Below the pieces are notes generated by a model. That model had not been told where the DNA came from. It searched no databases and worked only from the letters and a program-made list of their open reading frames with translations. Positions 19,074 to 31,698 of a stretch of DNA of 64,000 nucleotides are shown here, piece after piece (the first letter of the stretch is position 1; the number at the start of each line of letters is the position of its first letter). This stretch comes from Agathobacter rectalis ATCC 33656 (GTDB lineage Bacteria > Bacillota > Clostridia > Lachnospirales > Lachnospiraceae), in assembly GCF_000020605.1 (NCBI RefSeq), contig NC_012781.1, positions 1,302,001-1,366,000 on the forward strand, written 5' to 3'. The position numbers and the translations under genes were made by a program.

Positions 19074-19146
19074 GGGATCTTAGCTCAGCTGGGAGAGCAT
19101 CTGCCTTACAAGCAGAGGGTCACAGGTTCGAGCCCTGTAGGTCCCA
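19074..19146 (+). tRNA. tRNA-Val (anticodon TAC), copy 1
   Basis: A 73-nt cloverleaf. The acceptor GGGATCT pairs with AGGTCCC, the anticodon loop is CTTACAA, and the T-arm contains GGTTCGAGCC. CCA is not encoded. It is the first gene of a four-tRNA cluster and is identical to the copy at 19270. Confidence 0.96.
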
Positions 19147-19172
19147 TCCTTTTAAAGGATATCAATCAATAT

Positions 19173-19246
19173 GGCGAGGTGGCTCAACTGGCTAGAGCGT
19201 CCGGTTCATACCCGGGAGGTTGAGAGTTCGAGTCTCTCCCTCGCTA
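19173..19246 (+). tRNA. tRNA-Met (anticodon CAT), elongator type, copy 1
   Basis: A 74-nt cloverleaf. The acceptor GGCGAGG pairs with CCTCGCT (first pair G-U), the anticodon loop is TTCATAC, and the T-arm contains AGTTCGAGT. The anticodon stem lacks the three G-C pairs of initiators and there is no C1-A72 mismatch, so it is elongator Met. A CAT-reading Ile isoacceptor is less likely. Confidence 0.92.
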
Positions 19247-19269
19247 CTTTACTTCAACAGAAGTGACAC

Positions 19270-19342
19270 GGGATCTTAGCTCAGCTGGGAGAGCATCTGC
19301 CTTACAAGCAGAGGGTCACAGGTTCGAGCCCTGTAGGTCCCA
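19270..19342 (+). tRNA. tRNA-Val (anticodon TAC), copy 2
   Basis: 73 nt, identical to the tRNA at 19074. It begins the second copy of a 173-bp tRNA-Val/tRNA-Met unit. Confidence 0.96.
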
Positions 19343-19368
19343 TCCTTTTAAAGGTATCAATCAAATAT

Positions 19369-19442
19369 GGCGAGGTGGCTCAACTGGCTAGAGCGTCCGG
19401 TTCATACCCGGGAGGTTGAGAGTTCGAGTCTCTCCCTCGCTA
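19369..19442 (+). tRNA. tRNA-Met (anticodon CAT), elongator type, copy 2
   Basis: 74 nt, identical to the tRNA at 19173. It is the last tRNA of the cluster, directly followed by a terminator. Confidence 0.92.
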
Positions 19443-28127: not shown

Positions 28128-28487
28128 TTATCCAAGTACTTTTCTGATTGACTCGATAACACGGTCAGCCTGAAATGGCTTAACGATGAAATCCTTGGCA
28201 CCTGACTGGATAGCGTCAATAACCATAGACTGCTGTCCCATAGCAGAGCACATAACGCATGTAGCATTTGGGTCAGCTGCTTTAATTTCCTTTAAAGCCT
28301 GGATGCCATCCTTATTTGGCATAGTGATGTCAAGTGTTACAAGATCAGGCTTGAGCTCATTGTACTTTGCAACTGCCTCATTTCCGTCAGCAGCCTCGCC
28401 TGCAATCTCGAATCCACCCTTTGTAAGGATATCCTTCAGCATCATTCTCATAAATGCTGCATCATCAACTATTAAAATTCTAGCCAT
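28128..28487 (-). CDS. cheY: Chemotaxis response regulator CheY
   Basis: A 119-residue single receiver domain that, when phosphorylated by CheA, binds the flagellar switch. It has the Asp pair in ILIVDDAAFMR (Asp8, Asp9 of the acidic pocket), the phospho-acceptor Asp in LVTLDITMPNKDG (~residue 53), the Thr/Ser position in VMCSAMGQQ, and the conserved Lys in FIVKPF. It has no output domain. AGGAGG lies before the ATG. It is 4 bp downstream of a CheC/FliY-like gene and in the same operon, so phosphorylated CheY is a likely substrate of that protein. Codon use indicates good expression. Confidence 0.92.
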   Translation of the reverse strand: MARILIVDDAAFMRMMLKDILTKGGFEIAGEAADGNEAVAKYNELKPDLVTLDITMPNKDGIQALKEIKAADPNATCVMCSAMGQQSMVIDAIQSGAKDFIVKPFQADRVIESIRKVLG

Positions 28488-28491
28488 TTTG

Positions 28492-29070
28492 TTAAACCTC
28501 CTGTTTGATAATCTGTTTTACTATGCTTATTGGATACAACTGTAAGAGATCACTGTCTATTAAATCTCCAACAGTCAGCCTGAATGTCACCTTGACAATA
28601 TCTGTTCCGTTACACAACTCGTCCGGTATATCAAAGGTCTTCTGATAACTTGAATTGATAAGCGGAAAACCTATGTCGGTTGGCTCGTTTAAGAGCGAAG
28701 ACATTGATGTAGCTATTGTACCACACATCTGGTTCATAGCCTCCGATATGGCGGAAAGTGTGATTTCATCAAGTGTCATATCAGAAACATTACTTCCGTT
28801 GCCTCCCATCATGAGATTGGCAATAACCAATGCATCATTTAATTTTATAATAAGTAGGTTGGTTCCGTCAAGTCCTTTTGTGTAAGGAACCTTAATTAAA
28901 ATTCGATCATCATGATCGAGAGCATCCTCTTTTTTCAAAACCTCTACAATCGGAGTCGTAATATTTGTCGGTTTTTGTAGAATCATGCTCAGTGTTGTGG
29001 CTGCATTGCCTATGCAGATATTGGCTACTTCGCCTATGATATCGGCATTTTCCCGAGATATATTTTGCAT
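28492..29070 (-). CDS. CheC/FliY-N-like CheY phosphatase
   Basis: A 192-residue protein of the CheC/CheX/FliY family, which dephosphorylates CheY. Both active helices are present: IGEVANICIGNAATTLS (with E-x-x-N) and ISEAMNQMCGTIATSMS (with E-x-x-N), each followed by the expected Pro. There is no SpoA (FliN-like) domain, so it is CheC or a truncated FliY rather than a full switch protein. The frame can be read from 29112, but GGAGG lies 8 bp before the ATG at 29070, and the promoter start point is expected near 29108, so the longer start is unlikely. The cheY gene follows 4 bp later. Confidence 0.85.
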   Translation of the reverse strand: MQNISRENADIIGEVANICIGNAATTLSMILQKPTNITTPIVEVLKKEDALDHDDRILIKVPYTKGLDGTNLLIIKLNDALVIANLMMGGNGSNVSDMTLDEITLSAISEAMNQMCGTIATSMSSLLNEPTDIGFPLINSSYQKTFDIPDELCNGTDIVKVTFRLTVGDLIDSDLLQLYPISIVKQIIKQEV

Positions 29071-29114
29071 TATTTTATCCTCCATATGACTGTGGTACCT
29101 ATTTCCTAACATAT

Positions 29115-29142: not shown

Positions 29143-29200
29143 AGGAAATGTTTAATTTTTTTGAATTTATGTTAAAATAGTTTCAAAAGGAGATTACAAT

Positions 29201-31108
29201 ATGGGTGAAACAGAATATTCAGAAGCATTAAAGCTGGGAAAAAAAGAATACAGGGCAAGGATAGCTAAAGGACAGTTTCCTTATCTGCCAGTGCTTGATG
29301 AAATCTTATCAGAGGCAGATATTCAGACAGAGCAGAATATGGGGCTGGTTCATGTGCCTTTGGATTTCGTTGTAGGAACAAGCACCATGGGAAGGACATA
29401 TTCATTTGCGGCAAATTTTATGCCGATATTGGACTGGGAAACCGAATTTGCAGTGAAGTGGTCTAATCTGTCAGATGCACAGATGAATGAGGGAATCAGA
29501 GATCCAATCAAGGCATTTGAGTACATGAACAGGTATTATGTGCTTGAGGGCAATAAGAGGGTCAGTGTACTCAAGTACTTCAACGCCGTTTCGATTCCTG
29601 CAATTGTGACCAGAAAGATTCCAAAGCTGTCGGATGATTATGATGTGAGGCTTTATTATGAGTATATGAAGTTCAATGAAATCACGGGGCTTTGCTCGGT
29701 GGAGTTTACGAAGCTGGGCAATGCTGATAAGCTTCTTTCGCTTGTTGGAAAAGAGGGCAGATGGGATGATGAGACCAAGGAAAAATTTGCCAAGGTAATG
29801 TTTGATTTTTCAAAGGTCTATAATTTCCGCGGTGGTGACAGGCTGGACATTAAGCTGGGTGATGCTATTACAGTATTTATGGAGGTCTTTGGCATGGATG
29901 CCATGCTTGAGATGTCTGAGAATGATTACAACAAAAACGTCATCAATACATGGAAGGAGTTTGCAGCAGAAGGGGAAAAGCACAAGATAAATCTGGTGCT
30001 GGATCCGAAAAAGGTGCAGACCAAAAAGAGTCTGCTCAATTATCTGATTCCTCAGACACCGAAGAAGCTTAAGGTGGTATTTTTGTATCCGAGAGAGCCA
30101 AAGACATCTGCATGGCTGTATTCGCATGAGCTTGGGCGTATGTATCTTGATGAAACCTTTTCAGACAAACTGGAGACAGAATATGTGGCAGGTGTAGATG
30201 AGAACAATGTGGAGCAGGTGCTTGAAGATATCATAAAGTCCGGTGCCGATATAGTTTTTTGTGTGGGACCGCAGATGATGCCAAACAGCTTAAAGGTGGC
30301 TGTTGAGCATCCGGAGGTTTATATACTCAACTGTTCGCTGAATGCGCCTCATCCTTATATCAGAACATACTATGGACGTATGTATGAGGCAAAGTTTCTC
30401 GCAGGAATGATAGCAGGAGCTGTCACAGACAATGAAAGGGTTGCATATATTGCAGACTACCCGATATATGGCATGATTGCCAATATCAACGCGTTTGCTC
30501 TGGGAGTTGCAAGTGTGAATCCAAGGGCAAAGGTATATCTGGCATGGTCAAAGACAAAGGATTATGACAGGAATAAATTCCTTACAGAAAATGACCTGCA
30601 TTATGTGTCGGATCAGGATATTATCACTCCGAATGACGCGTCCAGATATTTTGGCCTGTATAAGCTGCAGGATGGACAGGCATTAAACCTTGCCATGCCT
30701 ATATGGAACTGGGGAGTGTTTTATGAGAAGCTTTTGCAGAGCGTACTTGCAGGCTCCTACAAGGCTGAAGGGCAGGAACAGGTTAAGGCACTTAATTACT
30801 GGTGGGGCATGTCTGCAGGTGTTATTGACCTGATTTGTTCAAAGCATGTACCTTATGGAGTGAAAAGGCTTGCGGATCATTTAAAGAGCGATATCACAAA
30901 GGGTGAGGTTGTGCCGTTCTTTGGACAGATATATAATCAGAAGGGAGAGCTTAAAAACAAAGGTGAGCACGAGATGAAACCGTCTGATATCATGAAAATG
31001 GACTGGCTTGTAGATAATGTTGTAGGTAGTATTCCGCCTATGAGTGAGTTTGTTGACAATGCAAAGATGGTGGTTGAACTAAAGGGTGTAGAGGAAAATA
31101 AACTGTAA
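29201..31108 (+). CDS. Cytoplasmic ParB-like/BMP-domain protein
   Basis: A 635-residue protein with no signal peptide, lipobox or membrane helix. Residues ~45-145 resemble a ParB/sulfiredoxin-like module (PLDFVVGTSTMGRTYSFA, then YYVLEGNKRVSVLKYF). Residues ~285-590 resemble the BMP/PnrA family, whose known members are lipoproteins that bind nucleosides for ABC transport (LKVVFLYPREP, SHELGRMYLDE, YEAKFLAGMIAGAV, ASVNPRAKVYLAWS). A cytoplasmic ligand-binding domain implies sensing rather than transport. AAAGGAG precedes the ATG. Its stop codon overlaps the start of the phosphoesterase gene (TAATG), so the two are made together. Nucleoside is the best ligand guess; the function is undetermined. 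Confidence 0.72.
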   Translation: MGETEYSEALKLGKKEYRARIAKGQFPYLPVLDEILSEADIQTEQNMGLVHVPLDFVVGTSTMGRTYSFAANFMPILDWETEFAVKWSNLSDAQMNEGIRDPIKAFEYMNRYYVLEGNKRVSVLKYFNAVSIPAIVTRKIPKLSDDYDVRLYYEYMKFNEITGLCSVEFTKLGNADKLLSLVGKEGRWDDETKEKFAKVMFDFSKVYNFRGGDRLDIKLGDAITVFMEVFGMDAMLEMSENDYNKNVINTWKEFAAEGEKHKINLVLDPKKVQTKKSLLNYLIPQTPKKLKVVFLYPREPKTSAWLYSHELGRMYLDETFSDKLETEYVAGVDENNVEQVLEDIIKSGADIVFCVGPQMMPNSLKVAVEHPEVYILNCSLNAPHPYIRTYYGRMYEAKFLAGMIAGAVTDNERVAYIADYPIYGMIANINAFALGVASVNPRAKVYLAWSKTKDYDRNKFLTENDLHYVSDQDIITPNDASRYFGLYKLQDGQALNLAMPIWNWGVFYEKLLQSVLAGSYKAEGQEQVKALNYWWGMSAGVIDLICSKHVPYGVKRLADHLKSDITKGEVVPFFGQIYNQKGELKNKGEHEMKPSDIMKMDWLVDNVVGSIPPMSEFVDNAKMVVELKGVEENKL

Positions 31109-31698
31109 TGAAGATACTATTCTTAGCTGATGAAGAGTCGAAAATGTACTGGGAATACTTTAAGAAAGAGGATTTTAAAGGAATTGATATTATTGTATCA
31201 TGTGGAGACTTAAACCCGAGCTATCTGTCCTTTCTGACAACGATGGTTGGAGTCCCTCTTTTGTATGTGCATGGCAATCACGATGACAAATACAATGTAA
31301 AGCCGCCGGAAGGCTGCATATGCATTGAGGATGAGATTTACGAATATGAGGGTGTACGGTTTCTTGGCCTGGGAGGCTCAAACCGTTATAAACCGGGAGA
31401 AAATCAGTATACTCAGAAGGAGATGACAAAGCGTGTTAAGAAGCTGTGGTGGAAGCTTAAACGTAAAAACGGCTTTGATGTGCTTGTCACCCATTCGCCG
31501 GCAAAGGGACTGCATGATGGTGAGGATACATGTCATACAGGCTTTGATGTGTTTAACAGGCTTATTGAGCAGTATAAGCCAAGGTATTTTGTGCATGGAC
31601 ATGTTCATATGAGTTACGGCAGGCAGTTTGTCAGGCTTGACAAGGTGGGAGAAACTACTGTTATCAATGCATACGAGAAATATATTGTTGAAATATAG
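31108..31698 (+). CDS. Calcineurin-like metallophosphoesterase
   Basis: A 196-residue cytoplasmic phosphoesterase with a dinuclear metal site. Motifs are the opening MKILFLADEES, in which the usual D-x-H has Glu in place of His, then SCGDLNP (~31-37), GNHDD (~56-60), VTHSP (~124-128) and HGHVH (~164-168). The last four are standard, so catalysis is plausible, with an altered first metal-binding motif. It starts on the last base of the preceding ParB-like/BMP gene's stop (TAATG) and so is translationally coupled. Substrates of such small enzymes range from cyclic nucleotides to phosphoproteins; the partner suggests a nucleoside-related phosphate, which is inference. Confidence 0.85.
   Translation: MKILFLADEESKMYWEYFKKEDFKGIDIIVSCGDLNPSYLSFLTTMVGVPLLYVHGNHDDKYNVKPPEGCICIEDEIYEYEGVRFLGLGGSNRYKPGENQYTQKEMTKRVKKLWWKLKRKNGFDVLVTHSPAKGLHDGEDTCHTGFDVFNRLIEQYKPRYFVHGHVHMSYGRQFVRLDKVGETTVINAYEKYIVEI

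Follow-up and report, generated by a model that had tools for sequence, protein, structure and literature searches.

A ParB-like protein fused to a BMP domain and its phosphoesterase partner: a conserved gene pair in which the BMP domain is accessory

Switches built on the ParB fold are newly known to extend past chromosome segregation. Sensor fusions of the ParB-CTPase fold, such as archaeal ParB-CBS, join a ParB/sulfiredoxin core bearing a GxxR motif to a small-molecule-sensing domain, and they lie outside parAB operons (excerpted text of PMC12704722). We describe a protein of similar build, a ParB-like/BMP fusion of 635 amino acids, and the calcineurin-like metallophosphoesterase of 196 amino acids encoded directly behind it in Agathobacter rectalis ATCC 33656. 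The stretch of DNA analysed, here called the window, is 64,000 nucleotides long and comprises bases 1302001-1366000 of a single-contig genome of 3,449,685 bases (NC_012781.1); positions below count from its first base.

The 2025 PNAS survey of the ParB-CTPase fold used the Pfam family PF02195 (excerpted text of PMC12704722). Because the window protein falls below the PF02195 cut-off (11.7 bits against 26.3), a Pfam-based survey likely misses it. The main text of that survey contains none of the terms "phosphoesterase", "ferredoxin", "4Fe-4S", "DUF4032", "BMP" and "substrate-binding", and our literature searches for a ParB-like plus phosphoesterase pair found no description. The free serine kinases SerK and SbnI share the fold superfamily and give weak profile matches; unlike them, the ParB-like proteins described here fall far under the family cut-off and have other partners, and their BMP-fused forms carry EGNKR or EGHKR. 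For the BMP part, the purine-binding proteins AtzT (6pi5) and 3s99 are the nearest structures. Most of their purine contacts are retained in one clade of fusions whose genes converge on the phosphoesterase gene. The window form differs from both structures in its apparently cytoplasmic location, its place behind a ParB-like core, and the Gly and (in its clade, mostly) Lys at AtzT positions Glu165 and Trp194. MPPED2, aq_1956 and Dbr1 are the closest solved phosphoesterase folds, yet identity to them is just 15-18%, and unlike them the phosphoesterase has an Asp-x-Glu motif I and a conserved His143-x-Gly145-Phe146. A BMP fold under a regulatory name occurs in B. subtilis-type Med (2hqb, transcriptional activator of comK), which matches our BMP profile with an expect value (E) of 3.8e-9. 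We know of no ParB-like core or phosphoesterase partner for Med.

The core of the module is the ParB-like protein together with the phosphoesterase, and the BMP domain is accessory to it; this is the observation that is new here. In the window, a ParB/sulfiredoxin-fold core is followed by a helical region and then by the BMP domain. Both open reading frames (ORFs) and their TAATG overlap lie where a preliminary description, drawn from the letters of the window, had placed them. The features of the locus are as follows.

29187 to 29193, forward strand: ribosome-binding site AAGGAGA of the fusion gene (sequence; like sites in relatives).
29201 to 31108, forward strand: ParB-like/BMP fusion gene, 635 amino acids (ORF; Pfam Bmp; full-length relatives).
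29321 to 29623, forward strand: predicted ParB/sulfiredoxin-fold core, residues about 41-141 (AlphaFold2 model; Foldseek matches to Noc/KorB/ParB and sulfiredoxin; profile).
29546 to 29560, forward strand: EGNKR, the putative GxxR phosphate-binding (P) motif, residues 116-120 (homologue alignment; motif role from the excerpted text of PMC12704722).
29639 to 29989, forward strand: helical region, residues 147-263 (AlphaFold2 model; counterparts in distant homologues by profile).
29990 to 30064, forward strand: low-confidence linker, residues 264-288 (predicted local distance difference test, pLDDT, <50 across 263-288).
30065 to 31036, forward strand: BMP domain of the periplasmic-binding-protein type, residues 289-612, without export signal (Pfam; profile against 3s99 and AtzT 6pi5).
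30470 to 30472, forward strand: Gly424 at the AtzT Glu165 position, a purine contact (alignment; contacts from the excerpted text of PMC6834077).
30557 to 30559, forward strand: Lys453 at the AtzT Trp194 position, purine stacking (alignment; contacts from the same excerpt).
31090 to 31095, forward strand: AGAGGA, an internal ribosome-binding-like sequence ahead of the phosphoesterase gene (sequence).
31106 to 31110, forward strand: TAATG stop/start overlap of the two genes, one base shared (sequence).
31108 to 31698, forward strand: calcineurin-like metallophosphoesterase gene, 196 amino acids, with a non-canonical motif I (Pfam Metallophos; model; Foldseek).
31129 to 31137, forward strand: motif I, Asp8-x-Glu10 replacing Asp-x-His (133 homologue sequences).
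31600 to 31608, forward strand: GHxH motif, His165-x-His167 (133 homologue sequences).

Homologue searches bear out the conservation of the pair. In a genus sample of 60 genomes, the window's own included, full-length matches to the fusion at 41% identity or more were found in 37, two of these matches having one internal stop codon; in one more genome the fusion gene is split across two contigs. The phosphoesterase occurs in 38 of the 60, the same 38 as the fusion, and is adjacent each time by coordinates. Conservation of the fusion ORF is far beyond chance. The named loci are the best 80 of 592 confirmed stretches and lean to close relatives, which belong to Agathobacter, Roseburia and other Lachnospiraceae; in 79 of these 80 the phosphoesterase gene is next downstream on the same strand, with a gap of 847 bases in L111 and a phosphoesterase cut by the contig end in L053 and L070. 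Across 293 genomes there were 33 full-length fusion matches, in 31 genomes, and 30 of the 33 entered the partner check (G282:C30, G143:C28 and G327:C52 were left out). Among 119 fused sequences, distinct by exact match only and including L180 and L181, 102 stand in tandem with the phosphoesterase, 14 are convergent with it and three are without an adjacent partner, so that the two genes occur together at 116 loci. No third neighbour is conserved, the next cluster being present at 10 of 71 loci.

The preliminary description also read the overlap as translational coupling. The one-base overlap is real here, but among the tandem loci measured just L003 and L021 share it, the rest having spacings of -23 to 69 nucleotides. 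Since the gaps vary in this way and some loci are convergent, translational coupling is a local arrangement and not a conserved one.

Outside the window's lineage the pair occurs without BMP. We searched 348 genomes of the phylum with a ParB-like profile (E 0.01) and a phosphoesterase profile (E 1e-15). Each profile matches 22 genomes, of which 20 are common to both, with two and two carrying one match alone (Fisher p 3e-28 for co-occurrence, relatedness not corrected). Of the 20 genomes with both, 17 have the genes next to each other. G594 proved to have a short ParB-like gene beside the phosphoesterase after all, and the G653 match, judged by eye, seems unrelated. At 12 loci outside the class (L151-L162) the phosphoesterase gene comes first, followed on the same strand by the ParB-like gene, and BMP is absent. 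The ParB-like proteins of these loci end in cysteine-rich tails, partly of ferredoxin type. Fer4-type models score over cut-off in five of the seven tails scanned (L157, L158, L160, L162 and, narrowly, L156) and find nothing in the other two, L151 and L153. By eye, the tails of L159 (partly masked) and L161 are ferredoxin-like and those of L152, L154 and L155 are reduced. In L163 and L169, short ParB-like genes lie just before the phosphoesterase gene and overlap it. The neighbours of BMP-free loci are lineage-specific, with endonuclease III-, Sir2- and NagA-like genes named by eye, no family search having been made.

We built a tree by a quick method from 66 fused rows (every third named locus included) and 12 BMP-free rows. 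One branch parts the BMP-fused from the BMP-free forms, and the convergent form makes up one clade (Shimodaira-Hasegawa-like approximate likelihood ratio 99 for each); the root is unsure because the branches are long. The pair is thus found in three gene orders: tandem, convergent and phosphoesterase first. Because the ParB-like and phosphoesterase genes occur as a pair without BMP outside the lineage, BMP is not central to the system. Reduced cysteine tails, together with short forms that have no C-terminal domain, indicate that a sensor is not obligatory either. What we infer most strongly is a functional linkage of the ParB-fold protein and the phosphoesterase, which has persisted while gene order changed at least twice and the C-terminal domain was replaced.

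We favour, with a confidence somewhat short of even, the reading that the pair is a soluble two-gene sensor-effector module in which a ligand-gated, nucleoside triphosphate (NTP)-binding switch controls the phosphoesterase or is opposed by it. The ParB/sulfiredoxin-fold core would bind nucleotide through GxxR; behind it would come the helical region and a C-terminal domain that can be exchanged. In the window's lineage the latter would be a BMP domain that was captured from a secreted purine-binding lipoprotein and has stayed cytoplasmic. When this domain closes around a small ligand, the nucleotide state of the ParB-like core would change; that state would control the partner phosphoesterase by a physical or functional contact between the two, and the phosphoesterase would cleave a small phosphorylated or nucleotide substrate. 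The earlier label of an intracellular sensor-enzyme pair is fair, with the change that the pair also exists without BMP.

An AlphaFold2 model of residues 1-288 of the fusion protein, made with 33 homologues as input, has a mean pLDDT of 88.5. With Foldseek against the Protein Data Bank (PDB), all nine matches at E <0.001 are Noc, KorB or ParB, the top one with E 2.6e-5 and probability 1.00, though they superpose poorly overall, and sulfiredoxin 6ky4 fits the N-terminal model locally (root-mean-square deviation, rmsd, 4.0 over 88 columns). A profile of the ParB core, built from 14 sequences of BMP-free homologues and two BMP-fused ones, matches PDB chains of Noc (E 3.5e-4), sulfiredoxin (5.2e-4), ParB (1.5e-3), SbnI (3.6e-3) and SerK (0.3). 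Taken alone, the window's own N-terminal part matches no Pfam ParB family up to E 1, the window protein gives no NCBIfam SerK match up to E 1, and ParB_N is matched by four of the 33 N-terminal homologues, at best with E 0.0081. The subfamily is not settled; membership of the ParB/sulfiredoxin superfamily is well supported by profile and predicted structure, which upholds the earlier placing of a BMP domain behind a ParB-like module. When the N-terminal alignment was compared by profile with three individual ParB-type proteins from the window's genome, no score was significant; with L121 the register did set EGNKR on GERR.

The GxxR motif is present in all 133 homologues compared (119 fused, 14 BMP-free), as EGNKR in 117, EGHKR in two, DGNHR in nine and DGHHR in five. 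In the ParB-CTPase fold, GxxR is the NTP/phosphate-binding P motif (excerpted text of PMC12704722), and the ParB-like core very likely binds nucleotide through it. The counterpart of the helical region scores over the cut-off of Pfam DUF4032 (PF13224) in three of 10 distant homologues (L158, L160 and L162). The DUF4032 model also matches six of 14 control genomes, over cut-off in three.

These matches bear on two other readings of the ParB-like protein. It might be a small-molecule kinase of the SerK/SbnI type, opposed by a phosphoesterase that removes the phosphate, with the C-terminal domain sensing demand; we regard this as unlikely. For the distant L151 no family scores better than NCBIfam SerK (27.2 bits, E 1.9e-6), which also matches 13 of the 16 ParB-core sequences, the profile reaches SbnI structures, and SerK itself carried a ParB annotation until its kinase activity was found (excerpted text of PMC5120207). 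However, the SerK cut-off (NF053625, 380) is far above the score of L151, of the same 16 sequences 12 match parB_part and 11 match Noc, models that also outscore SerK for L170, and SerK structures are reached by profile only at the E of 0.3 given above. The motif also differs, all 119 BMP-fused forms having EGNKR or EGHKR.

The Foldseek matches would fit a cytidine triphosphate-dependent protein of the Noc/KorB type, a DNA clamp or a regulator, whose tail senses a ligand; the phosphoesterase would then act separately, perhaps on the nucleotide. We consider such a clamp quite improbable. Global superposition on Noc, KorB and ParB is poor (template modelling score by query 0.22-0.24, rmsd 14.8-19.1), and family searches, as distinct from structural judgement, found no helix-turn-helix family in the window protein or in the 33 N-terminal parts. 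No parA was recognised by eye among the flanking window ORFs, the phosphoesterase alone is conserved as neighbour, and some distant forms stop after the core.

The phosphoesterase ORF matches Pfam Metallophos PF00149 with 44.3 bits (cut-off 21.5) and misses the YfcE cut-off (TIGR00040; 21.9 bits against 56.25). Its model has a pLDDT of 94.2, and the structures named above are its nearest by Foldseek. The canonical motif I of calcineurin-like phosphoesterases is Asp-x-His. In 133 phosphoesterase sequences (116 from fused loci, 17 others), Asp8, Asp34, Asn57 and His58 are each invariant, His129 is present in 132 (one gap) and His165 and His167 in 131 (two gaps), and the stretch His143-x-Gly145-Phe146 is also conserved. 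Because the motif-I His is absent, the metal site appears non-canonical, and activity is not to be assumed.

The phosphoesterase also matches the PADLOC family PDC-S10 (67.7 bits, E 2e-19, a model without cut-off), as do four of four homologues tried. An anti-phage defence pair of a PDC-S10-type phosphoesterase and a ParB-like sensor nevertheless seems very improbable. The pair is present in 38 of the 60 genus genomes, and each PADLOC family listed matches at most three of 113 neighbours (25 of 29 families; no random-gene comparison), with several general ATPase models on one protein among them. A scan of viral contigs found no relative of the ParB-like part, and the literature searched did not give the basis of PDC-S10. 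A viral scan with the phosphoesterase gave nine weak relatives, at 24-38% identity. On a 10-kilobase faecal scaffold labelled as phage (MT836456), unverified and possibly bacterial, the whole pair is present (L181, 1615-4245).

The C-terminal half of the fusion scores 63.4 bits against Pfam Bmp PF02608 (cut-off 24.1), and the genome has no second Bmp match at E 0.001. By profile its nearest solved structures are 3s99 (E 6.3e-70) and AtzT (E 1.4e-69). In AtzT, guanine is contacted by Asn218, Asn220, Glu165, Ser97 and the backbone of Phe98, and is sandwiched by Tyr45 and Trp194 (excerpted text of PMC6834077). We mapped these positions by sequence alignment. In 13 stand-alone BMP proteins, drawn from 12 hand-picked stretches, Glu165, Trp194, His218 and Ser97 are each present in all 13. 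The 14 convergent loci have Asp or Glu at 165 (14), Trp194 (11), His218 (14) and Asn or Asp at 220 (14). L033 and L037, members of the convergent clade without an adjacent partner, keep Asp165 and His218 and lack Trp194. Position 98 is Pro in most fused forms. In the tandem clade, which includes the window, 100 of the 102 sequences have Gly165 and 88 have Lys194, and in the window protein Gly424 and Lys453 occupy the places of the AtzT-like purine contacts.

Most simply, the BMP domain would be a captured secreted binding protein of the purine type. The convergent clade probably still binds purines, and the window's clade would bind something other than purines, or bind in another way. With the change of Glu to Gly and of Trp mostly to Lys, two purine contacts are lost in the window's clade; a nucleoside ligand, as first suggested, or a nucleobase one is unsupported for this clade.

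We see no sign of export, as had been proposed, and the fusion protein most likely stays in the cytoplasm. Upstream of its ATG start the frame is open for only 13 codons. A pattern search, with no signal-peptide predictor used, found a lipobox-like motif in none of the 119 distinct fused homologues, and the peak 15-residue hydrophobicity over their N-termini is 1.97. Twelve of the 13 stand-alone BMPs have a hydrophobic N-terminal stretch of 2.3-3.5, the thirteenth, L195, seeming truncated, and a slightly looser pattern finds a lipobox-like motif in eight of them. At least one public record, from Collinsella in another phylum (L180), files the fusion as a transporter component, annotating the pair as "BMP family ABC transporter substrate-binding protein" and metallophosphoesterase; that the fusion is a misannotated or relict binding protein of nutrient transport which acquired an extra N-terminal part, with the phosphoesterase as an incidental neighbour, is nevertheless hardly credible, given the missing lipobox, the single Bmp match in the genome, the three gene orders of the pair and the lack of any ATP-binding cassette genes recognised by eye beside the fusion gene among window ORFs.

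Several observations weigh against the favoured ligand-gated switch with its dedicated phosphoesterase. The partners are not always together: in the phylum search the genes are apart in three of the 20 genomes (G367, G617 and G637), G605 (97% complete) has the ParB-like core and no phosphoesterase, and G352 has the phosphoesterase and no ParB-like core. Three fusions have no adjacent partner: the contig of L094 stops 36 bases beyond the match; L033 also sits at the end of its contig, yet its genome (G147, 99% complete) gives no phosphoesterase match anywhere; and L037 belongs to a genome (G209) with the phosphoesterase on another contig. A second fusion copy with 42% identity (G059:C19:8357-10264) is partnerless in a genome that is 69% complete. 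The sensor is also uneven, for the cysteine set is reduced in five of the 12 BMP-free tails, the short ParB-like forms have no C-terminal domain, and the window's tandem clade has the Gly and, mostly, Lys substitutions in its pocket. In the phosphoesterase, position 10 is His in none of the 133 sequences and Glu in 118, and the enzyme may act weakly or in a different manner.

A wider proposal, possible although on balance doubtful, is that these loci represent an undescribed and widespread signalling module. A ParB/sulfiredoxin-fold NTP switch or kinase would act with a dedicated non-canonical phosphoesterase under lineage-specific cytosolic sensors, a captured solute-binding domain of the purine type in one case and an iron-sulfur tail in another. 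If true, nutrient or redox state would set a phosphorylated small-molecule signal. The pair would offer a tractable case of a secreted binding protein recruited as an internal sensor in gut Lachnospiraceae, and would also show what such a ParB-fold switch controls.

The surroundings of the pair are diverse. On 113 immediate neighbours of 110-700 amino acids, citrate synthase leads the Pfam families with six matches (25 of 122 families listed). In the window, genes that look cheY-like and cheC-like by eye are found upstream of the pair, in divergent orientation, at 28128-29112. Pfam CheC is matched by the neighbour in L042 and by four of the 113 flanking proteins scanned. The Collinsella locus is on a 900-kilobase record named "plasmid 6"; it may be a piece of chromosome, because ribosomal protein, nusG and tuf genes adjoin the pair. 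A second full-coverage match in the plasmid collection is a Subdoligranulum record. Further upstream in the window, at 19074-19442, four tRNA genes form two alternating pairs with equal scores, an arrangement that resembles a tandem duplication.

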